From Anaerolineales bacterium (GTDB lineage Bacteria > Chloroflexota > Anaerolineae > 4572-78 > NAK82), in NCBI GenBank assembly GCA_024643945.1, contig JAHELX010000057.1:1-17085 (forward strand): 17,085 nucleotides of DNA, read 5' to 3'. Shown here one piece after another: positions 895 through 17,085 of this stretch. Both the position numbers and the translations under genes were made by a program. Every line of letters starts with the position of its first letter. The first letter of the stretch is position 1. Below the pieces are notes generated by a model. That model had not been told where the DNA came from. It saw nothing but the letters and a program-made list of their open reading frames with translations, and did not search any database.

Positions 895-2163
895 TTATTG
901 CTTCTGATACGGTTGGCCGTCGGCAGCGGGCGGCGTAGTGCGGCCGATGACGCCGGCCACGGCGATCATGGTCAGGATGAAGGGTAACATGCCGATGAAT
1001 TGGTAGGGCACCCCGACTTCGAGAATTTGGAACTTAAAATTCAGGGCATCAGCAAAGCCGAAGAGAAGCGCGCCCAGCGCGCCGCCGAGGGGGTTCCAGT
1101 TGCCGAAGATCATCGCCGCCAGCGCGATGAAGCCGCGCCCGTTGGTCATCAGGTCGTCGAAGTGGCCCACCGTCTCCAGCGAAAACCAGGCGCCCCCCAA
1201 TCCGGCGATGCAGCCGGCCAGGATGACGTTGACGTAGCGCACTTTGAAGACGTTGATCCCCAGCGTGTCGGCGGCGCGAGGATGCTCGCCCACGGCGCGG
1301 GTACGCAGTCCCCACGGCGTGCGGAAGAGCACAAACCACACCACCGGCACCAGGATGATAGCCGCGTAGACCATCGGCTGATACTGGAAGAGAATCGTCC
1401 CCAGGATGGGAATGTCCCATAGGGGTGTCTTCTGGAAGACGTAAGGGAACAAGCCGGGGGCGCCAAACGGATTCTTGAGCAGAAAGGCAGCCCGGATGTA
1501 GCCGCTCACACCCACGGCCAGGATGTTGATAACGGTGCCGCTGATGATCTGATCCACCATAAAACGGATGGAGAGGACGGCGTGCAACGCGGCCATCAGA
1601 CCTCCGCCGAGGATAGCGACCAACAATCCGATCCACATGTTTTGGGTGTATAGCGACGCCATGTACCCCACCGCAGCCGCGGTGAGCATCATGCCCTCGA
1701 TGGCGATGTTGATGACAGCCGCGCGTTCGCACATCACGCCGGCCAGCATGCCCAACGCGATGGGAGTGGACAGACGCATGCTGTCCTTGATCATACCCAC
1801 CAGGTCAATGCTCTTGTCGGCGGCGGCGGCGACGAGAGCGGCCAGCACAATTAGCCCGAAGCTGGCGCCCAGGAGCGCATTCACCGCCCGCTCACTGGGC
1901 GAGCGCAGCAGCGAATAGGTGCCGGCCAGCCCCAACAAGATACCAATGACGATCAGGCTGGCCTGGGTAGGCAAAGAGATGCGCACCGGCGGCGGCTTGC
2001 CGATAATCCCCAAACCTAATTTCGAGATGATATCGGGATCAGCCCGCGTAATGGCTCCTACCAGGATGATCAACGCCACGAGCAGATAGAAAACGCCAAA
2101 GCCGCGCGCGCGGGTCCAAAATCGTGTGGTCCTTACCATTGACGCAGCAGTTGCTACACTCAT
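895..2163 (-). CDS. BMP-type (nucleoside-like) ABC transporter permease, NupQ/YufQ-like
   Basis: 422-aa inner-membrane permease of the BPD_transp_2 family, which moves substrates such as nucleosides in BMP-type ABC importers. Diagnostic motifs are CERAAVINIAIEGMMLTAA near residues 145-163 and the coupling-loop motif GLRTRAVGEHPRAADTLGI near residues 288-306. It has many hydrophobic segments throughout. The family is usually a little over 300 aa; here about 100 extra N-terminal residues add three more hydrophobic segments before the conserved core. The ATG is preceded by GGGGGAGG located inside the end of the upstream fused permease gene, with only 3 nt between the genes, so the two are translationally linked. 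It should form a heterodimer with the 2167-4308 permease and be driven by the 4295-5827 ATPase. It is the last gene of the transporter operon. Substrate is unproven. Confidence 0.9.
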   Translation of the reverse strand: MSVATAASMVRTTRFWTRARGFGVFYLLVALIILVGAITRADPDIISKLGLGIIGKPPPVRISLPTQASLIVIGILLGLAGTYSLLRSPSERAVNALLGASFGLIVLAALVAAAADKSIDLVGMIKDSMRLSTPIALGMLAGVMCERAAVINIAIEGMMLTAAAVGYMASLYTQNMWIGLLVAILGGGLMAALHAVLSIRFMVDQIISGTVINILAVGVSGYIRAAFLLKNPFGAPGLFPYVFQKTPLWDIPILGTILFQYQPMVYAAIILVPVVWFVLFRTPWGLRTRAVGEHPRAADTLGINVFKVRYVNVILAGCIAGLGGAWFSLETVGHFDDLMTNGRGFIALAAMIFGNWNPLGGALGALLFGFADALNFKFQILEVGVPYQFIGMLPFILTMIAVAGVIGRTTPPAADGQPYQKQ

Positions 2164-2166
2164 CGT

Positions 2167-4308
2167 CTACCTCCCCCAGCCCCGGGTGAAGACCACCATT
2201 GCCTCACGTCGTGCTCGCATACGATATAGCCAGCGGATGATCTCGTCGGCGGCGATGAACATAATGACCAAGGCCTGGATGATGTTAACCAGGTCAATCG
2301 AGATACCCTGCGCCCGCACCTGCATCAAGCCTGCGCCGTTGCGCAGTGCGCCCCACAAAAAGGCGGCTGGGAAGATACCAAAGGGATGGCTTTTTGCCAG
2401 AAGGGCCACTGCGATACTGTCGAAGCCAAAGCCGGTGGAAAAGGCCGCCTTGAGCGCGTACTCGCTGGGCCGCCCCAGCACGATCCCGATGCCGGCCAGC
2501 CCGGCCAGCGCACCGGAGAGCCCCATCGCCAACACAAAGTTGCGACTGACGCTCATCCCGGCATATCGAGCGACACTGGGATTGGCCCCCACGGTGCGGA
2601 TTTCAAAGCCCCAGGTAGTCTTGAACAAGAACCACCAGACAAATACAATCGCCGCCAGCGCCACCAGAAACCCGGCGTGGAGCTCGTATTGCGGCAAAAT
2701 GAGCGGATAGCGGGCCGTCGGGCTCACGAAAGGCGTGCGATCCAATGATGCCGTGGGGTCCTTGAGGGGATTTTTCACCAGGTAGTCCACCGTTTTGACG
2801 GCGATGTAGTTCATCATAATGGTGTTGATGACTTCGTGCGCGCCGGTCTTCGCTTTGAGCAGGCCTGGGATCGCCCCCCAAATCGCCCCACCCAGCATGC
2901 CGGCAACGATGGCCAGCGGCAGGTGGATGTAAATCGGCAAACCGGTGACACCGAAGCCAATCACCGTGGCGAGCAATGCTCCCATATAGAGCTGCCCTTC
3001 GGCGCCGATGTTGAACAGGCCACACTGAAAGCCGAGCGCCACCGCCAGTCCGGCCAGGATGTAGGGGGTGCTATAGGTGAGGCTGGTAGCCAGAGCCTTG
3101 GGCGATCCGATTGCACCTTCAAACAGGCCGCCGTAAGCTGCCAGCACGAACCTGTTCGCCTGGGGGATCACCTGACGCCACGTCTCACCGGCCGCCCTGA
3201 GGTCCGAAGCGTGCGTAACCCAAATGATGATAGCCCCAATCAACACTGCGGTGAAGACGGCCAACACCAGCACCGCCAATTCGGTCCATCGCCAGGCCCG
3301 GATCCGATCCCAAAGCGTCTCGGCGATGTCCTCACCAGTCGGGCCAACACCGGTGGTGATGGTGCCGCTGCGCAGTCCGGCGGCTATCTCATCGATGCGG
3401 CCTTTGGCCTCTTCCGGGATGGCGCTCTCGGCGGCGTGATATGGGGCCAGATCAACACCCTCATTGCCAGCGTCGAAGATGGCCGTCTCACCTACGAACT
3501 TACCTTCTCCCGCGCGCCGGATGGCCACGTAAACCGCGTTGTCCACGCGTTTGATAGCGCTGGACAGCAGCCGGTCGGCGCCTGGCGCGCGGCCGTTTTC
3601 AAAGGTGGTGACCCACTCATCCTGATCCACGCCGATGGCCCAGACCCCCTGTTCAGCCGCCTCCCGGATGCCCCCGCTACCCGTTTGCCCCCCGGCGCCG
3701 AAGATGACATCAGCCCCTTGCTCAATAAAGGACTGGGCCACCACCCGGCCCTTCCCCGGATCGGTGAAAGATTCAATGTACTCGCCCAGCACCTCCACTT
3801 TGGGGTTAACATGCCTGGCGCCGTTGGTGAAGCCCTTGCGGAACTTGATGACGGGCGGGATCTGGTCGCCAGCGACCACCCCCAGCACGTTGCTCTGGGT
3901 CACGTAACCTGCCAGAGCGCCTGCCAGGAACCCGGCCTGGTCTTCGGCGAAGAGCAAGCCCATTACATTGGGCAAGACCGGATAGGGCGCAAAGTCTATG
4001 GTGACAAAGTTGGTGTGGGGATAGTCTTTGGCCACCCGCTCTGTCGCCTCCCCCAGTATCTGGCCGACGGTGACGATCACCTGATAGCCACCCTCGGCCA
4101 GCATCAGGATATTGCCTTCTCCATCCTCGGGGCGAGCTGTCTCGATGTAAGTTGTCTCCAAACCAAACTCTTCGGCCGCGCGCTGCATACCCTCGTAGGC
4201 GTATTGATTGAAAGTGCCGTCGTCAATCTTTCCTATATCGGTGACCAGGCCAACCCGCACTCGAGTGACATCATTATTTCGTGTTAGGATGGTATTATGC
4301 GATGACAC
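2167..4308 (-). CDS. Fusion: BMP-type ligand-binding domain (no signal peptide) + NupP/YufP-like ABC permease
   Basis: About 713 aa. Residues 17-325 form a complete BMP/PnrA-like ligand-binding domain (VGLVTDIGKIDDGTFNQYAY at the start; DVIFGAGGQTGSGG and WAIGVDQDE later). The first membrane helix comes at 342-363. Residues 400-713 are a BPD_transp_2 permease with the family motifs GLFNIGAEGQLYMGA, TGAHEVINTIMMNYIA and GFEIRTVGANPSVARYAG. Normally these are two proteins, with the binding protein exported as a lipoprotein. Here there is no signal peptide or lipobox, so the BMP domain should remain in the cytoplasm unless it is exported in some unusual way. Start choice: GTG at 4308 has GGAGGAGGAAGG just before it, whereas a longer in-frame GTG at 4329 lacks one. 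The start overlaps the end of the ATPase gene by 14 nt, and the next gene follows after 3 nt. Domain calls are firm; topology and role are inferred. Confidence 0.9.
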   Translation of the reverse strand: MSSHNTILTRNNDVTRVRVGLVTDIGKIDDGTFNQYAYEGMQRAAEEFGLETTYIETARPEDGEGNILMLAEGGYQVIVTVGQILGEATERVAKDYPHTNFVTIDFAPYPVLPNVMGLLFAEDQAGFLAGALAGYVTQSNVLGVVAGDQIPPVIKFRKGFTNGARHVNPKVEVLGEYIESFTDPGKGRVVAQSFIEQGADVIFGAGGQTGSGGIREAAEQGVWAIGVDQDEWVTTFENGRAPGADRLLSSAIKRVDNAVYVAIRRAGEGKFVGETAIFDAGNEGVDLAPYHAAESAIPEEAKGRIDEIAAGLRSGTITTGVGPTGEDIAETLWDRIRAWRWTELAVLVLAVFTAVLIGAIIIWVTHASDLRAAGETWRQVIPQANRFVLAAYGGLFEGAIGSPKALATSLTYSTPYILAGLAVALGFQCGLFNIGAEGQLYMGALLATVIGFGVTGLPIYIHLPLAIVAGMLGGAIWGAIPGLLKAKTGAHEVINTIMMNYIAVKTVDYLVKNPLKDPTASLDRTPFVSPTARYPLILPQYELHAGFLVALAAIVFVWWFLFKTTWGFEIRTVGANPSVARYAGMSVSRNFVLAMGLSGALAGLAGIGIVLGRPSEYALKAAFSTGFGFDSIAVALLAKSHPFGIFPAAFLWGALRNGAGLMQVRAQGISIDLVNIIQALVIMFIAADEIIRWLYRMRARREAMVVFTRGWGR

Positions 4309-5827
4309 GGCCTTCCTCCTCCACGACACCAGCCATCAACAGGCCAATTTTCTCACGGCTGGCCCGCTCGGCATCTAATGTGGCGATGATTTGTCCCTTG
4401 TACATCACAGCGATGCGGTCGGACAGCGACATAATCTCATCTAACTCGGCCGACACCAGCAAGACAGCCACCCCATCATCGCGGGCGGCCACCAGCCGGC
4501 TGTGAATAAATTCAATGGAGCCCACGTCCAGGCCTCGAGTCGGCTGAGCCGCAATCAGCAATTTGATAGGCCGCGAGAATTCGCGCGCCACTACCAGCTT
4601 TTGCTGGTTGCCCCCCGAAAGACTGCTGCCCGACGTGTAGACGCTGGGGGTGCGGATATCAAACTCGTGGACCAGGCGTAACGCATTGTCTTCAACCGCC
4701 CGGTTATCCATCACAACCCCATGCGCGAAAGGAGGCTTGTAATATGTGTTTAAGATCAGGTTGTCGGCGATGGGATAGCCAGACACCATGCCATATTCGT
4801 GCCGGTTCTCCGGTATATGAGCCACGCCTTGCTGGGCGACTTTGCGCGGCGAGGCATCGGTTACATCTACATCCCCGATGAGGACGCGGCCGTCCAGGCA
4901 AGAGCGCAGCCCGGTCAATACCTCTACCAACTCCGTTTGACCGTTGCCCTGCACGCCGGCGATGCCCAGAACCTCGCCGGCCTGCACCTCAAAGGACGCA
5001 CCATCCACAACCAGTGCCCCCCGGTCATCAAGTGCCTTTAAATTTTCCACCCGCAGCACGACTGGGCCGGGCTGAGCCGGCTTTTTATCCACCCAGAGCA
5101 TCACTTCCCGCCCCACCATCATCTCGGCCAGCGATTCTCTTGTTGCCTCAGCCGGGGTGGTGGTGCCGACCACGTGCCCGTTACGCAACACGGTGATCCG
5201 GTCGGCCACAGCAAACACCTCACGCAATTTGTGGGTGATGAAGATGATACTTTTACCCTGCGCAACCAGGGAGCGCATAATCACGAAAAGCTCTTCTGCC
5301 TCCTGCGGCGTGAGTACGGCCGTCGGCTCGTCGAGGATGAGGATGTCGGCCTCACGGTAGAGGGCTTTGACGATCTCCACCCGCTGTTGGGTGCCGACCG
5401 GCAAGTCCTTGACGTATGCGTGCGGGTCAATTTCCAGGCCGTATTGCCGTGACAGATCGTGAATGCGTCGGACGGCCGTCTTTTGATCGAGCACAAAGCA
5501 ATTCCTCACGATCTCTATGCCGAGAATGATGTTCTCGGCCACCGTCATCACCGGGACCAGCATAAAGTGCTGGTGAACCATGCCGATCCCCAGCCGGATA
5601 GCGTCGGTCGGCTCATTAATCTCCGCTTCCTGGCCGCCCAGGAAGATTTGTCCCTCGTCCTGGCTGTAGAGGCCGTATAGGATGTTCATCAGGGTAGTTT
5701 TGCCGGCCCCGTTTTCCCCCAGCAAGGCGTGGATTTCGCCCTTTTCAAGTTGGAAGTTGATGTGATCGTTAGCCAGGACGCCCGGGAACCGTTTGGTGAT
5801 GCCGCGCATTTCCAGAGCTAGGCTCAT
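4295..5827 (-). CDS. BMP-type ABC transporter ATPase with two nucleotide-binding domains, NupO/YufO-like
   Basis: 510-aa cytoplasmic ATPase with tandem ABC domains, the usual architecture and length for sugar- and nucleoside-type importers of this class. Domain 1: Walker A GENGAGKT (38-45), signature variant LPVGTQQRVEI, Walker B LILDEPTAVLTP and H-loop ITHKL. Domain 2 (second half): degenerate Walker A GVQGNGQTEL, canonical signature LSGGNQQKL, and Walker B LLIAAQPTRGLD, where Gln stands in place of the catalytic Glu. That pattern of one canonical and one degenerate site is common in this family. GGAGG lies about 10 nt before the ATG. It is 18 nt downstream of the PhnE-like permease gene and overlaps the fused permease gene. 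It should power the 2167-4308 / 895-2163 permease pair. Confidence 0.93.
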   Translation of the reverse strand: MSLALEMRGITKRFPGVLANDHINFQLEKGEIHALLGENGAGKTTLMNILYGLYSQDEGQIFLGGQEAEINEPTDAIRLGIGMVHQHFMLVPVMTVAENIILGIEIVRNCFVLDQKTAVRRIHDLSRQYGLEIDPHAYVKDLPVGTQQRVEIVKALYREADILILDEPTAVLTPQEAEELFVIMRSLVAQGKSIIFITHKLREVFAVADRITVLRNGHVVGTTTPAEATRESLAEMMVGREVMLWVDKKPAQPGPVVLRVENLKALDDRGALVVDGASFEVQAGEVLGIAGVQGNGQTELVEVLTGLRSCLDGRVLIGDVDVTDASPRKVAQQGVAHIPENRHEYGMVSGYPIADNLILNTYYKPPFAHGVVMDNRAVEDNALRLVHEFDIRTPSVYTSGSSLSGGNQQKLVVAREFSRPIKLLIAAQPTRGLDVGSIEFIHSRLVAARDDGVAVLLVSAELDEIMSLSDRIAVMYKGQIIATLDAERASREKIGLLMAGVVEEEGRVIA

Positions 5828-5845: not shown

Positions 5846-7678
5846 TCAAATAATCCTTTCTCTCACCCTGGCGCTGGCGTAGTCGAGGGTGGCGACGACA
5901 ATGGCAATGGCGATCATTTGCACACTGGCATCGCGATACTTCAACAGGTTCAGGTTTTGCTGCACCAGGAACCCAATGCCTCCCCCGCCGCCGAAGCCGA
6001 TGATGGTGGACATACGCACGTTGATGTCCCAGCGATAAATGGTAAAAGCGATATAGGGTGGTACGATCTGGGGGATGACAGCATACACAATGGTCTGCAA
6101 ACGGTTGGCGCCCGTACCTGTTATCGCTTCAATAGGGCCCTGCAAGATATTCTCTACCTGCTCCGAGTAGAGCTTGCCCAAACCGGCGATGGTGTGCAAA
6201 GACAGCGCTATCACTCCGGCAAAGGGACCAATGCCCACCCACACCGCAAAGGCCACTACCATAATCAGCGGCTCGATGGATCGCAACGCGTTGAGGATAG
6301 TACGCATTATGTTGTAAACAATCATCCCGGTAGGCACGGGCCGTTCCACGTGAATGCTGAGACTAATCACCAGCATGATCGCCCCTGCCACAAGCGCCGG
6401 CAGTGAAACAAACCTGACAACATTCTCGATTTCATACAGCCAGGCGATACCGGCGAACAGGAGAGCTACCAGTAGCGCCCCGGTCAGGGTAGCCACAACC
6501 ACCGTGAATACTTTGGCCACGGCCGGTTTGGTCGCCCGCAAGAAGCGGCCGGAGAGCGAAGAGGCCAGGGAACTCAAGGCGAAAAGGCCAATCAGCGCCC
6601 CCAGAAACGGCAATATAATCACGATCAAATCGCCGATGATGAAGACAAAATTCCCCAGAAAACCAAAGGCACCCAGCTCTGCTTGCAGAAACAGCCCTAG
6701 CTTGATGCCCAGTGTCCCCAGCAGGCCCAGCCCCCAAACAGCCAGGAAGAGGGTCAGCAGGCCCAACCCACCTTGTCGCCAGGGGGCAAACCGCCCGTGA
6801 TACTCTCCCGAGAGCAGCCGGGTGAACAGCCATAAGATGCCGGCACTGGCTGCCAGCGAGATGACGCCGAGACTTGTATTTTGGGCTATGCCATCTGCCA
6901 CGCCATTAAGCCAGCCGAACAGCGATGAACCGAGCGCCCAGCCAAAGGGAGCCAGGAGCAGACTGGCCATCACACTGCCAAAAGGACTGATCACGTTGCT
7001 CATCAAGTTACGAGCAGCCAGAAAGCTAAGGGGAATGGCCAGGGCGGTGCCTAACGTGGTAGCGATGAGCGCGAGGAAAACAGTTTCGATGATTTTATCA
7101 AAGGTGTCGTTAAGGGTAGCGCTGGGTTGGGGGGCGCCCTGGCGAATTCTAACCACGGCCCGGACGAATTGCGGCTTGTCAGATGGGCGGTCATTTCTCA
7201 TCGTAGCCACATAGGTAAACCGCCCCTGGGAATTGACCTCGATGGGGTTATCGGCCAGGCGCAATTCCACTTGTTCGTGGATGCTGGGCGCTTCAGGGAT
7301 AAAAAAGAGATACACGATTTCGCCCGGTTTGAAGTTGTAGCCATCCACGGTTACTTTGCCCCCCAGTTCGACGCAATTGGGGGTCACTTCTATGTAACGG
7401 CCAGATTTGTCCACCGGCGGCAATTGAACTTGCTTGTTGCAGGGCATTATAACGGGCGCGTCTATTTCCAGCCGTTGTTCCGGGTATTCAAAGAGACGCG
7501 GCTGCGCCAAACCCCGAATGATATTGGTCAACTGGATCTGGCGTCGTTCTTCTTTCGGTTTTTCCAGGTCGACTTTAGTGACTTGAAAGCCATAGGCATA
7601 TATAATAAGGATGACCACTACGACCAAGAAAGTGCCAAGGGAATGCCAGATCGGTCTGGGGTTTTGTTTCTGGTCCAT
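5846..7678 (-). CDS. phnE: Enlarged PhnE-like phosphonate-type ABC permease with extracytoplasmic and extra membrane domains
   Basis: 610 aa, more than twice the roughly 270 aa usual for PhnE. Order: one N-terminal membrane helix (16-30); an extracytoplasmic region (about 35-188) with Cys80 and Cys102 and a strand-rich stretch, VELGGKVTVDGYNFKPGE, like IPT/TIG or Ig-like folds; the start of the PhnE core (188-226, ending IPLSFLAARNLM); an inserted hydrophobic block of about 225 residues (227-450) with roughly six membrane segments; then the rest of the PhnE core. The latter carries LRSIEPLIMVVAFAVWVGIGPFAGV and the ATPase-coupling EAA loop EAITGTGANRLQTIVYAVIPQ (517-537). It begins 5 nt after the PhnC-like ATPase gene and must pair with it. 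The core assignment is secure; the roles of the two added regions are unknown. The transported compound could be phosphonate, phosphite or another oxyanion-bearing molecule. Confidence 0.88.
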   Translation of the reverse strand: MDQKQNPRPIWHSLGTFLVVVVILIIYAYGFQVTKVDLEKPKEERRQIQLTNIIRGLAQPRLFEYPEQRLEIDAPVIMPCNKQVQLPPVDKSGRYIEVTPNCVELGGKVTVDGYNFKPGEIVYLFFIPEAPSIHEQVELRLADNPIEVNSQGRFTYVATMRNDRPSDKPQFVRAVVRIRQGAPQPSATLNDTFDKIIETVFLALIATTLGTALAIPLSFLAARNLMSNVISPFGSVMASLLLAPFGWALGSSLFGWLNGVADGIAQNTSLGVISLAASAGILWLFTRLLSGEYHGRFAPWRQGGLGLLTLFLAVWGLGLLGTLGIKLGLFLQAELGAFGFLGNFVFIIGDLIVIILPFLGALIGLFALSSLASSLSGRFLRATKPAVAKVFTVVVATLTGALLVALLFAGIAWLYEIENVVRFVSLPALVAGAIMLVISLSIHVERPVPTGMIVYNIMRTILNALRSIEPLIMVVAFAVWVGIGPFAGVIALSLHTIAGLGKLYSEQVENILQGPIEAITGTGANRLQTIVYAVIPQIVPPYIAFTIYRWDINVRMSTIIGFGGGGGIGFLVQQNLNLLKYRDASVQMIAIAIVVATLDYASARVRERII

Positions 7679-7683
7679 GAGTC

Positions 7684-8436
7684 CTATCCTATGCGCTCAG
7701 CTTCCTGGCCGTAAATCTCTCTAAACCGCTCATCGTCGATTTCCTGAGGCAAACCATCAAAGACCAGTTGGCCCTCGTTTAAGGCAACAGCCCGATCGGC
7801 GTATTGCTGCACCAGGTCCAAAAAGTGCAGGCTGCAGAGGACGGTGATCCCATCTTCCCGGTTCAACCGTTTCAAAATCCGCATAATGCTGTGCGCCAGC
7901 ACCGGGTCCAGGCTGGCAACCGGTTCGTCGGCCAGCATAATTTGGGGGTCCTGCATCAAGGCCCGGGCAATTCCCACGCGTTGCTGTTGGCCGCCGCTCA
8001 GCTCGTCGGCACGGTTGCTCGCCTTGTCGGTGATGCCCACACGCGCCAGATTGCTCATAGCCTTATCCACGTCCTCTTTGGAAAAGTGGTTGACCAGGCT
8101 CCAAAGAGGATTGACGTAGCCCAATCGTCCCGAAAGGACATTGATCAGGACGCCGGAGCGGGTGACCAGATTGAACTGCTGGAAGATCATGCCGATCCGG
8201 CGCCGGATCAAGCGTAGATCTTCCTGCGAGGCTGCGGTAATATCCACCCCATCCCAAATTACCTGGCCAGATGTCGGTTCAACCAGGCGGTTAATGCAAC
8301 GCAACAGCGTGCTCTTGCCGGAGCCACTCAGCCCAATCACCGCCAGGAATTGTCCGTCCGGCACTTGGAAGCTCACATTATCCAGTGCAAGCACCTGGTT
8401 ATCATAAGTCTTAGTCAAATTCTTGATCTCAAGCAA
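7684..8436 (-). CDS. phnC: PhnC-like phosphonate-type ABC transporter ATPase
   Basis: About 250 aa, normal for PhnC. Walker A GLSGSGKST (35-43), Q-loop MIFQQFNLVTR with the PhnC-typical continuation SGVLINVLSGRLGY, signature LSGGQQQRVGIARAL, Walker B IMLADEPVASLDP and an H-loop His in SLHFLDL. An in-frame TTG lies 12 nt further upstream (8448), but GGAGGG sits about 4 nt before the TTG at 8436 and nothing like a ribosome site precedes the longer start, so I use 8436. The gene follows the two-headed binding-protein gene after a 240-nt spacer with inverted repeats, and is followed 5 nt later by the PhnE-like permease. Together these form the phosphonate-type half of the operon. Confidence 0.92.
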   Translation of the reverse strand: MLEIKNLTKTYDNQVLALDNVSFQVPDGQFLAVIGLSGSGKSTLLRCINRLVEPTSGQVIWDGVDITAASQEDLRLIRRRIGMIFQQFNLVTRSGVLINVLSGRLGYVNPLWSLVNHFSKEDVDKAMSNLARVGITDKASNRADELSGGQQQRVGIARALMQDPQIMLADEPVASLDPVLAHSIMRILKRLNREDGITVLCSLHFLDLVQQYADRAVALNEGQLVFDGLPQEIDDERFREIYGQEAERIG

Positions 8437-8455
8437 GTTACCCTCCAAACTTCAC

Positions 8456-8678: not shown

Positions 8679-10778
8679 TCATCCACCAAAGATGTCTTCC
8701 TCGGTGTAACCCAGGCCCTTGATCAGCTTGCGGATCACGTCATATGCCGAGTCTTGAATCGGGTCGATACCGGTCCAGCTATAGAACTGGTCAGAGCAGA
8801 TCGACTGCTGGCAAGCATCAGACGCAGTGAAGGCAACCATCGCATCCAGGATCTGACTCCTGAGAGCCTCCGGGAACTCGGGAGAGAAACTCATGGTGTC
8901 GTTCGGGATGGCGTCGGTCAGCATCATGATGCGGACCTTCTCGAAGATATCGGGGGCGACGTCCAGCACGGCGGTGCGGGCATCGAGCACGCGCACGTCG
9001 CCGGCGAAGGCCTGGCCCTGATCATTCAGCTTGACTGCTGTGTAGTCAAATGGCTCAGGATTGTCCCCTGGCTGCCACGGGGGCGTGGTGAGGGGCGCGC
9101 TGAAGTAGGTGGTGGCAAAGTCCACTTCGCCGTTGTACACCGCCAGAGCTGCCTGCGGGTGCCCACCCGCCTCGACGATTTCACCCGGCTCCACGCCAGC
9201 CTCCTGGAACATGACCGAGGGGTAAAGGTATCCGGAGGTAGAACCCAAATCGGGAACCGCCCACTTCTTGCCAGCCAGATCTTCCAGAGTTTGGTAGTCG
9301 CTGTCGCGCGGCACCAGGAACTGCGCCCAGTAAACAGACCAGCCAAAGCGCTCTGCGGCGCCGGCGACCTGGACCCCGCACTTCTGATTGGCGATGACAT
9401 AACCCAGCGCCGGGATAAAGCCGATGGTGTCGGTGGGCGAGGCGCACATCGCCTCGACCGTGGCCGCGTAGCTGGTGGGCACGCTCACCTCGAACTTCAG
9501 GCCGGTGGCATCTTCGAGTGCCTTGGCCATGACCTCACCGCCGGAGACGATCACACCGGCGTCAACCGAGGGCACGAACAGCACCTTGATGGGTTGGTCC
9601 GCCGTGCCGATGTCGGTGGCCGCCATGGCCTCTCCTCCAGCCGGACCCGCCGCACCCAGCAGATCGCCGGTGACCGGATCGACACCGGTCTCCAGCGAGC
9701 CGTCGGCCAGCATCTTGAAGGTCTCATCCAGCTTGGCCTTCACCTCGTCGGGGACGGCGCTCTCGGTGTCGTGGAAGGGGGCCAGCTTAACGCCGTCAAC
9801 GGCTGCATCGAACATGGCCGTGCGCCCCTCAAAGGTGCCATCGTAGGCTTCCTTGATGGCGGTGTAAACGGCCACGTCTACGCGCTTCATGGCGCTACTC
9901 AGCAGCTTGTCAGCGCCAGCCTCTGAACCGCCCTTGAAGGTAGTGAAGTACTCATCCTGATCGACGCCGATAACCCATGTGCCTTGCTGAGCTGCGCCCA
10001 GGATGCCGCCCGAACCAGTGGGGCCACCCGCGCCGAAGATGACGTCGGCGCCCTCGGCGATCTGGCTTTCGGCCGCTGCCTTGCCGCGTGCCGGGTCGGT
10101 GAAGCTGTCAATGTACACCCCAAGCGCGTTGCAGTCGGGGCAGATGTACTTGACCCCATTCTCGTAGCCGTTGCGGAATTTCTTGACGGCTGGGATCTCC
10201 ATACCGGCCACGATGCCGACCGTCTTGCTCTGGCTCATCAGACCGGCGAGCACACCCGCCATGAATCCCGACTGGTCTTCGCGGAAGACCAGCCCCATTA
10301 CGTTGGGGATGGCCGGATCGTAGGCGAAGTCCACAATGGCGAACTTGAGGTCGGGGTTGGCCTCGGCCACCTTCTGGGTCGTCTCACCCATCATAAAGCC
10401 GACGGTCACGATCATGTTGTAGCCTTCGTCGACGAACTGCACGACGTTCTTTTCGTAGTCGGTCGGCTGCTGGGTTTCGATGAAGGCGTTGTCCAGGCCG
10501 AATTCCTCAGCAGCTTTCAGCATGCCTTCATAGGCATACTGGTTGAAGGTACCGTCGTTGACCTTACCCACGTCAGTGACCAGACCCACCTGGAACTTCT
10601 CTGCTGCCGGGGCCGGGGCTTCGGTGGCGGGGGCCTCAGTGGCCGGGGCCTCGGTGGCGGGGGCTTCGGTCGCGGCTGGAGGCGGTGCCTGGGTGGCCGG
10701 CGTTGGTGTAGCACACTGAGCAGCCAACATCGAAAGAACGACGAGCAGTCCCACTAACACGAATAGTTGCTTACGCAT
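8679..10778 (-). CDS. Two-headed substrate-binding lipoprotein: BMP/PnrA-like domain + PhnD-like domain
   Basis: 699 aa. Hydrophobic signal peptide (1-21) ending at Cys22 (LAAQC, with an unusual Gln at -1), so probably a lipoprotein. A tether with ATEAP repeats follows (27-60). Residues 62-370 are a BMP/PnrA-like domain (VGLVTDVGKVNDGTFNQYAY; DVIFGAGGPTGSGG; WVIGVDQDE). Residues 395-690 are a PhnD-like periplasmic-binding domain with GFIPALGYV, the ligand-loop motif DLGSTSGYLYP (510-520), GEVDFATTYFSAP and IPNDTMSFSPEFPEAL. ATG with AAGGAGG about 7 nt upstream. It is the first gene of a six-gene operon that contains both a PhnC/PhnE pair and a BMP-type ATPase/permease set, matching its two heads. 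Normally each head is a separate protein of about 300-350 aa. Domain calls are strong; the ligands and whether both heads act together are unknown. Confidence 0.93.
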   Translation of the reverse strand: MRKQLFVLVGLLVVLSMLAAQCATPTPATQAPPPAATEAPATEAPATEAPATEAPAPAAEKFQVGLVTDVGKVNDGTFNQYAYEGMLKAAEEFGLDNAFIETQQPTDYEKNVVQFVDEGYNMIVTVGFMMGETTQKVAEANPDLKFAIVDFAYDPAIPNVMGLVFREDQSGFMAGVLAGLMSQSKTVGIVAGMEIPAVKKFRNGYENGVKYICPDCNALGVYIDSFTDPARGKAAAESQIAEGADVIFGAGGPTGSGGILGAAQQGTWVIGVDQDEYFTTFKGGSEAGADKLLSSAMKRVDVAVYTAIKEAYDGTFEGRTAMFDAAVDGVKLAPFHDTESAVPDEVKAKLDETFKMLADGSLETGVDPVTGDLLGAAGPAGGEAMAATDIGTADQPIKVLFVPSVDAGVIVSGGEVMAKALEDATGLKFEVSVPTSYAATVEAMCASPTDTIGFIPALGYVIANQKCGVQVAGAAERFGWSVYWAQFLVPRDSDYQTLEDLAGKKWAVPDLGSTSGYLYPSVMFQEAGVEPGEIVEAGGHPQAALAVYNGEVDFATTYFSAPLTTPPWQPGDNPEPFDYTAVKLNDQGQAFAGDVRVLDARTAVLDVAPDIFEKVRIMMLTDAIPNDTMSFSPEFPEALRSQILDAMVAFTASDACQQSICSDQFYSWTGIDPIQDSAYDVIRKLIKGLGYTEEDIFGG
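10618..10677. repeat. Four 15-bp tandem units encoding the lipoprotein tether
   Basis: Units at 10618-10632, 10633-10647, 10648-10662 and 10663-10677, near-identical (pattern GCCTCGGTGGCGGGG, with a diverged last unit). On the minus strand they encode repeated ATEAP in the linker between the lipid anchor and the BMP domain. They probably vary in copy number by slippage, changing tether length. Confidence 0.85.
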
Positions 10779-15135: not shown

Positions 15136-16014
15136 TCATCCGGTAGCCAGGCGCAGCAAGGCCTCCGGCACCCACAACCTTCCAATGCCCATAAAAGCCA
15201 GGCCGGTGGAGGCAGCGAAGATAAGAGCACTGGCCGCAATCAGCACCTTGTCAGCGCGGCGGTAAGTGAGCTGGCGCACCCAGGTGCGCGGCCCAACGCC
15301 GAAGGCCCGCAGGTCCATGGCGTCAATGATGTCCTCGGCGCCGACGATGGCGTTGATAGTCACCGGCACTAACAAGGGTGCCAGCCGGCGAATCTGGGCC
15401 ACGATGCCGCCCGATAACTTCTCCACTTCATAGCCTCGGGCACGTTGGGCATCGAGGGTGATGCTGAAGTCACGGCCCAGCGTGGGCACAAAGCGAAAGG
15501 CCAGGTCCATCGCATAAGCGAACTTGTCAGGCAGGCCCAGACCCCGGAAGGTGGCGCCATAGAGACTGGGGTCCACCGTGTAGGGGATAGTGATGGCCAT
15601 CGTGGTAATGGCATACATGCGTGTTAGTTGGCTGAGAGCAAAAATGGTCTTTTCGGCGGTGATGTCGACGTAAAGTTGCCACCCGACGATGGGGAGGGAG
15701 AGAGGCCCCAGGCGGCGGATGAGATGCTCTTCGTGATAAGCAAACGCCACACCGCCTCTCCCGGTAAGAAACGTCAGGGTGGTCATAAAGAGGATGATGA
15801 AGCTGATGAGTATCCACACCCGGCGCGTTTCGCGCCAGGTGAGTCTGGCCAGCTTATACTGGAGCAATGCTATGCCCAAGAAAAGGAGCATAATGCGCAG
15901 GTCCCAGAACTGGATAATGGAGAAGAGCATGGCCAGCATGAAGATGATACGCGCACGGGGATCCAGGCGCTGGATGATCGTATCTCGTTCGCGGTAACGC
16001 CAGGCGATCAGCAT
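15136..16014 (-). CDS. ecfT: ECF transporter transmembrane component EcfT (CbiQ family)
   Basis: 292 aa, normal length. EcfT is the membrane scaffold that couples the ATPases to the vitamin-binding S component in energy-coupling-factor importers. Visible marks: an N-terminal start with LDPRARIIFMLAM (17-29), several membrane segments, and the two coupling-helix motifs that touch the ATPases, here DAQRARG (188-194) and DLRAFG (234-239). ATG at 16014 with AGAGG about 8 nt upstream. The gene is 35 nt downstream of the S component gene, and a palindrome (16032-16045) fills most of that gap. No EcfA ATPase is seen in the window; it may lie upstream of 17085 or elsewhere in the genome. Confidence 0.9.
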   Translation of the reverse strand: MLIAWRYRERDTIIQRLDPRARIIFMLAMLFSIIQFWDLRIMLLFLGIALLQYKLARLTWRETRRVWILISFIILFMTTLTFLTGRGGVAFAYHEEHLIRRLGPLSLPIVGWQLYVDITAEKTIFALSQLTRMYAITTMAITIPYTVDPSLYGATFRGLGLPDKFAYAMDLAFRFVPTLGRDFSITLDAQRARGYEVEKLSGGIVAQIRRLAPLLVPVTINAIVGAEDIIDAMDLRAFGVGPRTWVRQLTYRRADKVLIAASALIFAASTGLAFMGIGRLWVPEALLRLATG

Positions 16015-16031
16015 GACATCATCCTCTGGCC

Positions 16032-16045
16032 AGGGGCTCGCCCCT
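16032..16045. repeat. Short palindrome between the two ECF genes
   Basis: AGGGGC / GCCCCT around a 2-nt centre; extended on the minus strand it reads GTAGGGGCGAGCCCCTGG. It begins a few bases after the S-component stop and ends 17 nt before the EcfT start. It shares GTAGGGGC with the inverted repeat at 8456-8560. Confidence 0.5.
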
Positions 16046-16049
16046 ACTT

Positions 16050-16955
16050 CTAGCGACCGGTGCGAGCCTGAATGGCCTGGTAGGCGGCCAACAAGATGGG
16101 GGTGAGGATCATCGAGTTGAGGATGTTAGGGCCAGCCGCCGGGGCAAATTCGCCGATGATGGCTGTAGTAAAGCTGTAGCCATTCACCCAGATATCGGAT
16201 ATGGCGGCGAAGCCGATGCCGATGATAATGCCCAACGTGCCCCACAAGTTAACCGCAGCCAGATCCACGCTGACTCGCTCCAGCACAAAGCGGCCAGCAA
16301 TTACCACCACCCCGCCAATGACGAAGGCCCATGCCCAGAAGGAAAAGTCCTCGATCTCGCCCGTCCATGGGCCGATCACCTGGGGGTTGGCGAAGATCAG
16401 GCCGGCCGCAATGAGAATGAGCACAGCTACCAGGCCCGTCAGGAAGTTGAGGCTGCGCTTCTTGTCGGCGAAGAGCATGACCAGGCCGGGTACCAACCCG
16501 ATCAACCCGTTGCCCATATCCCAGACTGGGTACACACCCCAGCCGGTGATGAAGTCGCCCAGGATGTTGCCCACTGCCCCGGTGAAGAAGCCCACCACCG
16601 GGCCAAAGGCGTAGCCAAAGAAAATGGGAATGCAGACCGAAGGGCGCAACGATACCTGGCTGACAGATGGCATGGGGATGATATTGAAGATGTAGTTGAA
16701 GACCCCGTATAGCGCTGCGCCGATGGCCATATACACCACTTGCCGGGTGCCGACTTCCCAGGCGGTACTGCGTGCCGTGGTGAAGTAAACGGCGTAGATG
16801 CCGATGATGGCGATGGCAGTGAGCACCATCCAGGCCACTCCCTGGATCTTGTCGCCGCTGGTCAGCACACTGGCCAGAACCATTAACACCACGAAGGCGA
16901 CCAGCACCAGGAGCCACATGATGGCTCGATTTTGCGTGATTCTGCCTGTTGTCAT
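16050..16955 (-). CDS. ECF transporter S component (substrate-binding membrane protein), long form
   Basis: 301 aa with about nine hydrophobic segments; typical S components have about 170-200 aa and six helices. The core resembling ECF S proteins runs from about 70 to 165: RQVVYMAIGAALYGVFNYIF, then SLRPSVCIPIFFGYAFGPVVGFF, GAVGNILGDFITGWG and DMGNGLIGLVPGLVM. Two extra helices precede it (12-31, 40-58) and the C-terminal half (170-295) adds more. Its ligand is probably a vitamin or similar small compound but cannot be named from these motifs. ATG with GGGAGGAGGG about 6 nt upstream. Directly followed by ecfT, so the two should form one module with an ATPase encoded elsewhere. Confidence 0.85.
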   Translation of the reverse strand: MTTGRITQNRAIMWLLVLVAFVVLMVLASVLTSGDKIQGVAWMVLTAIAIIGIYAVYFTTARSTAWEVGTRQVVYMAIGAALYGVFNYIFNIIPMPSVSQVSLRPSVCIPIFFGYAFGPVVGFFTGAVGNILGDFITGWGVYPVWDMGNGLIGLVPGLVMLFADKKRSLNFLTGLVAVLILIAAGLIFANPQVIGPWTGEIEDFSFWAWAFVIGGVVVIAGRFVLERVSVDLAAVNLWGTLGIIIGIGFAAISDIWVNGYSFTTAIIGEFAPAAGPNILNSMILTPILLAAYQAIQARTGR

Positions 16956-17085
16956 CTCTTACCCTCCTCCCTGGGGGGCTTCCGATTTCTGAACCGGAAG
17001 CAATGACTTAAGGTTGCCAAAACAATTTTATCGTCTCTGCGGCAGGCACATCCCTCCCCCGGCGTGGCTGCCGCAAACGGCGCCC
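16956..17085 (-). promoter_or_regulatory. Leader of the ECF genes with two stem-loops, cut by the window end
   Basis: Contains CTTCCG / CGGAAG (16979-16984 with 16995-17000) and a longer stem GCGGCAG-G-CAC / GTG-G-CTGCCGC (17039-17049 with 17064-17074, one mismatch). I could not match either to a known riboswitch such as TPP, FMN or cobalamin, and saw no convincing promoter. The region continues beyond the window. Confidence 0.35.

Follow-up and report, generated by a model that had tools for sequence, protein, structure and literature searches.

In a 17,085-nucleotide stretch of contig JAHELX010000057.1 from an Anaerolineales bacterium (assembly GCA_024643945.1; referred to here as the window), we identified a gene in which a complete PnrA/BMP binding domain is fused, with no export signal, to the N-terminus of an ATP-binding cassette (ABC) transporter permease. 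The binding domain is well supported by prediction as cytoplasmic, and it may sense an imported nucleoside and gate transport. The chain consists of the PnrA/BMP domain, a short linker, and a NupP-like permease beginning at helix 1 (Table 1). Its two parts matched the Pfam models Bmp (PF02608; residues 21 to 288, 177 bits versus a cut-off of 24.1) and BPD_transp_2 (PF02653; residues 407 to 685, 145.7 bits versus a cut-off of 26.8). These matches, together with the position of the first hydrophobic helix, bear out the initial annotation of this DNA, which had placed a complete BMP domain directly ahead of that helix. In an alignment of 76 full-length homologues spread across both groups described below (a subset of the 120 listed), W341 of the linker is invariant, W339 is nearly so, and G325/E326, just ahead of the linker, are nearly invariant.

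The arrangement is conserved in relatives. In a protein search, the 7,999 candidates sharing the most words were scored, and 4,424 of them matched at E values up to 0.001; among the best 120 listed, 108 (including the window's own protein, P0002) are fusions with a readable start. The other 12 comprise 10 records without the domain start and two lipoproteins without a permease (P0070 and P0111). The listed homologues form two groups, about 62 to 98% and about 50% identical to the query. Copies 97 to 98% identical were found on other contigs, and an assembly artifact, which would be missing from close relatives, is ruled out by the occurrence of the same fusion on independent contigs and genomes. 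These proteins are already in databases under automatic names (i.e., "BMP family ABC transporter substrate-binding protein," "simple sugar transport system permease protein," or both combined), and none of the names shown mentions location. Scanning species genomes yielded 415 confirmed relatives, of which the best 80, representing 79 loci, were kept. Thirteen of these loci (L001 to L010, L012, L014, and L016) carry the fusion and are labelled Chloroflexi, Anaerolineae, Anaerolineales, Ardenticatenia, or Thermoflexales.

An export signal, which is expected of a PnrA/BMP substrate-binding protein or a GlnP/OpuA-type fused receptor, is absent from the fusion. The GTG start at position 4308 is preceded by the ribosome-binding site GGAGGAGG, as originally noted, and it sits within the 3' end of the upstream ATPase gene (overlap of 14 bases). 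The sole upstream in-frame start (GTG 4329) would add seven residues (MSWRRKA). When the window frame is extended upstream as far as its in-frame stop codon, 27 residues precede the BMP core, and they include no hydrophobic stretch. Among the 108 homologues with a readable start, a few of which start 0 or 1 residue from the core and may have miscalled starts, the tail ahead of the core is 0 to 22 residues long (median, 9), the peak ten-residue hydrophobicity within it does not exceed 1.29 (Kyte-Doolittle scale), and none of the 108 has a hydrophobic N-terminus. The longest in-frame leaders at 14 loci (the 13 fusion loci and the window) place 17 to 56 residues before the core with a best 12-residue value of 0.33, which rules out a signal peptide masked by a wrong start. 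For the 76 aligned fusions, the best 12-residue value within the first 45 residues is 1.47 or less, and the values for 12 hand-chosen exported BMP lipoproteins used as controls are 2.12 to 3.18. The lack of a signal peptide first reported for the window gene was thus reproduced in all 108 readable relatives and all 14 longest leaders; none of these revealed a signal peptide or an extra N-terminal helix.

The location of the BMP domain was predicted from the permease fold. The permease profile gave no match in a sequence search of solved structures at E values up to 1, and the whole fusion protein matched only BMP-type chains; a fold search was therefore needed. The modelled permease has a BtuC-like fold and superposes on BtuC and HmuU starting at helix 1, so its N-terminus should be cytoplasmic, as in the topology of BtuC. 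The N-terminal flank of the first helix is the more positive one in most fusion members, and unfused relatives retain helix 1 with a short N-terminal tail (median, 25 residues). The proposal that the BMP domain lies inside the cell is thus supported by several predictions (i.e., the missing signal, the helix 1 match, and the flank charges), whereas the accompanying proposal that it senses ligand and gates transport fits the evidence and is something we infer. By eye, four unfused permease-1 genes (L037, L042, L055, and L070) have about 80 extra residues after the first helix, which would be outside the membrane.

The fused domain is likely to bind a nucleoside-type ligand, judging from its residues. 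A report on BmpA (PMC13325309) lists Phe27, Phe151, Phe176, Val224, Asp225, and Lys242 in the pocket, puts Asp98 at the ribose, and assigns Asp19 and Asp24 to the polar face; a second report (PMC7093131) names Asn28 for BmpD. The fusion equivalents, assigned by motif alignment rather than superposition, are F33, F156, F181, V227, D228, K253, D105, D24, D30, and N34. We compared 85 nonredundant fused domains derived from 141 copies by removing near-copies (at least 88% identical) within each class. D105 and K253 are kept in all 85, F181 and D228 in 84, D30 in 83, F33 in 82 (Tyr in 3), D24 in 80, V227 in 78, F156 in 77 (Tyr in 7), and N34 in 72. In the 11 close exported domains, every pocket residue is kept in 11 of 11 except F156 (9 of 11). 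The Phe sandwich and the ribose Asp/Lys residues of PnrA/BMP proteins are therefore present (F33, F181, D105, D228, and K253). Other positions are conserved in fusions only (e.g., E90, R91, W232, and R313) or are conserved in exported BMPs and altered in fusions (e.g., 63, 65, 70, 75, 83, and 89). The latter pattern is suggestive of a relaxed docking surface in the fusions, docking and drift being distinguishable only in a complex. A CxxC motif at BMP positions 168/171 occurs in 10 of the 11 close exported domains and in none of the 85 fusions; a lost disulfide was set aside as a signal of location, because the motif is also absent from all 43 other exported domains, leaving the direction of the change unclear. 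For eight gene pairs, the ratio of nonsynonymous to synonymous differences (pN/pS), with synonymous sites partly saturated, is 0.12 to 0.41 for the BMP part and 0.05 to 0.30 for the permease part.

Phylogenetic trees of the two parts revealed different histories. In a quick tree (86 BMP domains), a branch supported at 99% separates the 48 fused domains from all others. In a more careful tree of 63 rows, for which eight distant exported rows were dropped, the second group was thinned to 14, and four exported partners were added, the 29 fused domains again form one side (support of 100/99), adjoining the exported BMPs of window-type systems. The permease tree (44 hand-picked rows; 21 fused and 23 unfused) needs two changes of fused state, and forcing the fused permeases together costs 159 log units (approximately unbiased [AU] test, p = 1.8e-36). 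The fused permeases also fell in two places in an earlier quick tree, which had a very long outgroup branch and in which the truncated fusion P0054 was labelled unfused. The group names were assigned after a first tree had been viewed. Since the fused BMPs form one clade and their permeases two lineages, the domain has apparently moved between importers. In the simplest account, a single duplication in which the signal was lost would have been followed by fusion to a permease of the window type and later by passage of the N-terminal domain into a second permease lineage. An independent fusion in the second group, which would join its fused BMPs to its own exported BMPs, was rejected (AU p = 3e-67), and a grouping of first-group fused with close exported BMPs, leaving the second group outside, was rejected less strongly (p = 0.008). 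Had an ancestral fusion been lost in numerous unfused lines, fused BMPs would be expected outside both exported groups, which was not seen.

Genomes with the fusion usually also encode an exported BMP protein. All 13 fusion-bearing genomes have at least one further BMP match, and 10 of them (G001, G003, G004, G006, G007, G008, G010, G011, G012, and G013) encode an exported BMP that belongs either to the window type or to that of the second group, the assignments for G003, G004, G007, and G013 resting in part on identity or on the copy of the gene at another locus rather than on a tree row of their own. A signal peptide was seen by eye in each of the ten; in G010, it lies in a different frame, ahead of a stretch of N.

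We propose that the fused domain duplicates the importer's receptor on the cytosolic side, where it would sense the imported nucleoside and gate transport. The gene product would serve as one of the permease subunits in an ABC importer of the nucleoside type (PnrA/Nup-like), carrying a relocated receptor domain on its cytoplasmic N-terminus. The exported BMP lipoprotein would bring substrate from outside, and the short conserved linker would keep the inner domain beneath the membrane, near both the inner mouth and the ATPases. As the level of the imported compound rises, the inner domain would bind it and alter the transport cycle, most probably by slowing the transporter or holding it in a resting state (i.e., substrate trans-inhibition). 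Such gating is modelled on MetNI and ModBC, in which the cycle is reported to halt once substrate occupies C-terminal domains of the ATPase (PMC10710835). The kept pocket residues, the usual presence of an exported receptor, and the occurrence of the domain on two permease lineages agree with sensing and gating. We consider the account as a whole about evenly balanced, because location, pocket, and transfer fit it, whereas the activity, with a nucleoside as ligand and gating as purpose, is putative. A broader version, tentative but possible, is that the duplicated receptor, having lost its export signal, became a portable cytosolic sensor module passed between two importer lineages, with matched receptors on both membrane faces reading the inside/outside balance of the same compound.

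Several observations weigh against a gating sensor inside the cell. The flank charges of the first helix are reversed in 5 of the 76 aligned fusions (and tied in 13), as they are in 2 of 40 unfused relatives, and the model does not settle the placement of the BMP domain relative to the membrane part (predicted template modeling score [pTM], 0.52). By pN/pS in the eight pairs, the BMP part evolves 1.2 to 2.5 times faster than the permease. The pairing with an exported receptor is not universal, as G002, G005, and G009 show distant BMPs only. Of these, G002 and G009 are drafts in many contigs. G005 is a single-chromosome record in which the ATPase adjoining the fusion (L005, 9235 to 9981) lacks the part matching residues 1 to 319 of the window ATPase, and that system may be broken. 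The fusion is also rare in Chloroflexota. In an even draw of 400 genomes from this phylum that included the carrier G003 and in which at most two candidates were scored per genome, so that the count is a lower bound, G003 was the only genome with both domains in one intact frame among the matches listed. In G205 (L110), roughly 75 model positions are missing from the start of the BMP part of the fusion frame, and a motif search of the reverse-strand frames searched did not find the start of the domain. In G032, G174, G347, and G350, both domains were spanned only across stop codons; in the three of these four that were inspected (L135, L112, and L113), BMP and permease are separate genes.

Other readings of the fusion share part of this evidence. 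The inner BMP domain might be an acceptor that takes substrate leaving the channel, for more one-way import or hand-off to metabolism, or that loads the transporter from inside for exchange or efflux. The kept pocket residues and a short linker whose conserved tryptophans would put the domain near the inner mouth suit this reading, which we regard as unlikely: the exported receptor in 10 of 13 genomes points to import, and ABC importers are driven by ATP and do not need an inner acceptor. It is quite unlikely that the domain has lost ligand binding and serves as a structural or assembly module, either stabilizing the pair of unequal permeases or orienting the ATPases; the linker tryptophans and the positions conserved in fusions only would be explained, whereas the pocket residues are among the most conserved.

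The BMP domain could instead be exported and work as an ordinary tethered receptor like those of GlnPQ and OpuA, if the first permease helix served as a reverse signal anchor (N-out). BMP domains are normally outside, long N-terminal tails are occasionally translocated, and the tied and reversed flank charges would be accommodated. However, passage of this folded domain (about 310 residues) across the membrane would have to occur without a signal, helix 1 matches that of BtuC and is retained in unfused relatives behind a short tail, and an exported receptor is usually already present. An N-out first helix is thus unlikely, and we give an exported domain a low probability. A neutral or decaying fusion with a functionless BMP part would fit its rarity in the phylum, the incomplete BMP part of G205, and the truncated ATPase of G005; the pN/pS values, the conserved pocket, and retention on two permease lineages speak against it and make it highly improbable.

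The fusion combines features of several known systems. It shares the Bmp domain with the PnrA/BmpA/Lbp nucleoside-binding lipoproteins (PF02608); unlike them, it has no signal peptide or lipobox, is joined to a permease, and is predicted to be cytosolic. Its permease part, partner permease, and two-domain ATPase resemble NupP/NupQ-type systems (BPD_transp_2), from which it differs by the added N-terminal BMP domain. As in GlnPQ and OpuA, receptor domain and permease form one chain. The receptor domains of GlnPQ and OpuA capture solute outside, whereas the BMP domain of the fusion is predicted to be inside. If gating holds, the system would be, like MetNI and ModBC, an importer with a cytosolic ligand-binding domain. 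In those systems, the regulatory domain is a C-terminal extension of the ATPase with another fold; here a whole receptor domain is on the permease N-terminus, and at E values up to 0.001, the window ATPase matched solely ABC_tran and two AAA models. LacI/CcpA regulators, which were matched in our searches through the shared periplasmic-binding fold, use that fold as a cytosolic sensor controlling transcription; unlike these, the fusion has no DNA-binding domain detected by a Pfam scan. The literature titles and abstract openings searched, whose coverage excludes most subscription papers and bioRxiv, contain no description of a permease whose cytoplasmic end carries a receptor domain lacking an export signal. 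In importers that depend on a binding protein, the receptor domain is what defines the outside; if the proposed sensing is true, the same receptor fold can be reused as a product sensor inside the cell, and substrate feedback has a second architecture besides ATPase extensions. The fusion offers a clean test case, with one protein, one removable domain, and one mutable pocket.

Table 1. Fusion gene, its parts, and neighboring transporter genes in the window
Feature	Coordinates	Strand	Remarks
BMP-permease fusion gene	2167..4308	-	713 aa; GTG start; frame open for 713 codons
PnrA/BMP domain (residues about 17-328)	3325..4260	-	No export signal
Linker (residues about 329-342)	3283..3324	-	From alignment of 76 homologues; low model confidence at 330-339
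First membrane helix (residues about 343-365)	3214..3282	-	Predicted N-in
NupP-like permease part (BPD_transp_2)	2170..3282	-	BtuC-like predicted fold
Exported two-headed lipoprotein	8679..10778	-	Signal/lipobox by eye; BMP plus phosphonate-type binding domain
PhnC-type ATPase	7684..8448	-	TIGR02315, above cut-off
PhnE-type permease (610 aa)	5846..7678	-	TIGR01097, 209.2 bits, just below cut-off of 216.7
ABC ATPase with two ABC domains	4295..5827	-	Pfam
Second permease (BPD_transp_2), NupQ-like partner	895..2163	-	Pfam

The genes around the fusion lie on the same strand in the order lipoprotein, PhnC-type ATPase, PhnE-type permease, two-domain ATPase, fusion, and second permease, and from this order and strand they probably share one transcript. 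A PF02653 domain with a partner permease and a two-domain ATPase alongside identifies the permease part as NupP-like. The second permease follows the fusion in 11 of the 13 fusion loci, the remaining two contigs ending within the fusion gene. Counted with longest open frames, the ATPase and fusion frames overlap in 9 of the 12 loci with both genes (window included), and a gap separates them in L003, L010, and L012. By eye, the PhnE-type permease has a long stretch after its first helix that is not strongly hydrophobic. An Rfam scan of the window at the gathering threshold gave no match. Positions 15136 to 16955 encode an ECF transporter T component and a riboflavin-type S component; no ECF ATPase gene was seen among the scanned proteins of the window, which ends at 17085. 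L055 (2197 to 9745) has the same Phn-plus-nucleoside gene order as the window but an unfused permease, and its lipoprotein, in which no BMP domain was matched, carries a phosphonate-type domain with a weak LysM match.

Within the window, the fused BMP domain and its exported counterpart share 57% identity over 313 residues. Exported BMP lipoproteins are often two- or three-headed, as in the window gene (8679 to 10778), L001 (5314 to 8250, minus strand), L093 (1246 to 3828), L082 (3 to 2538, minus strand), P0070, and P0111. The heads include BMP plus phosphonate-type, BMP plus SBP_bac_5 (peptide-type), BMP-BMP, and phosphonate-type plus two BMPs, and one multi-headed lipoprotein might serve two importers.
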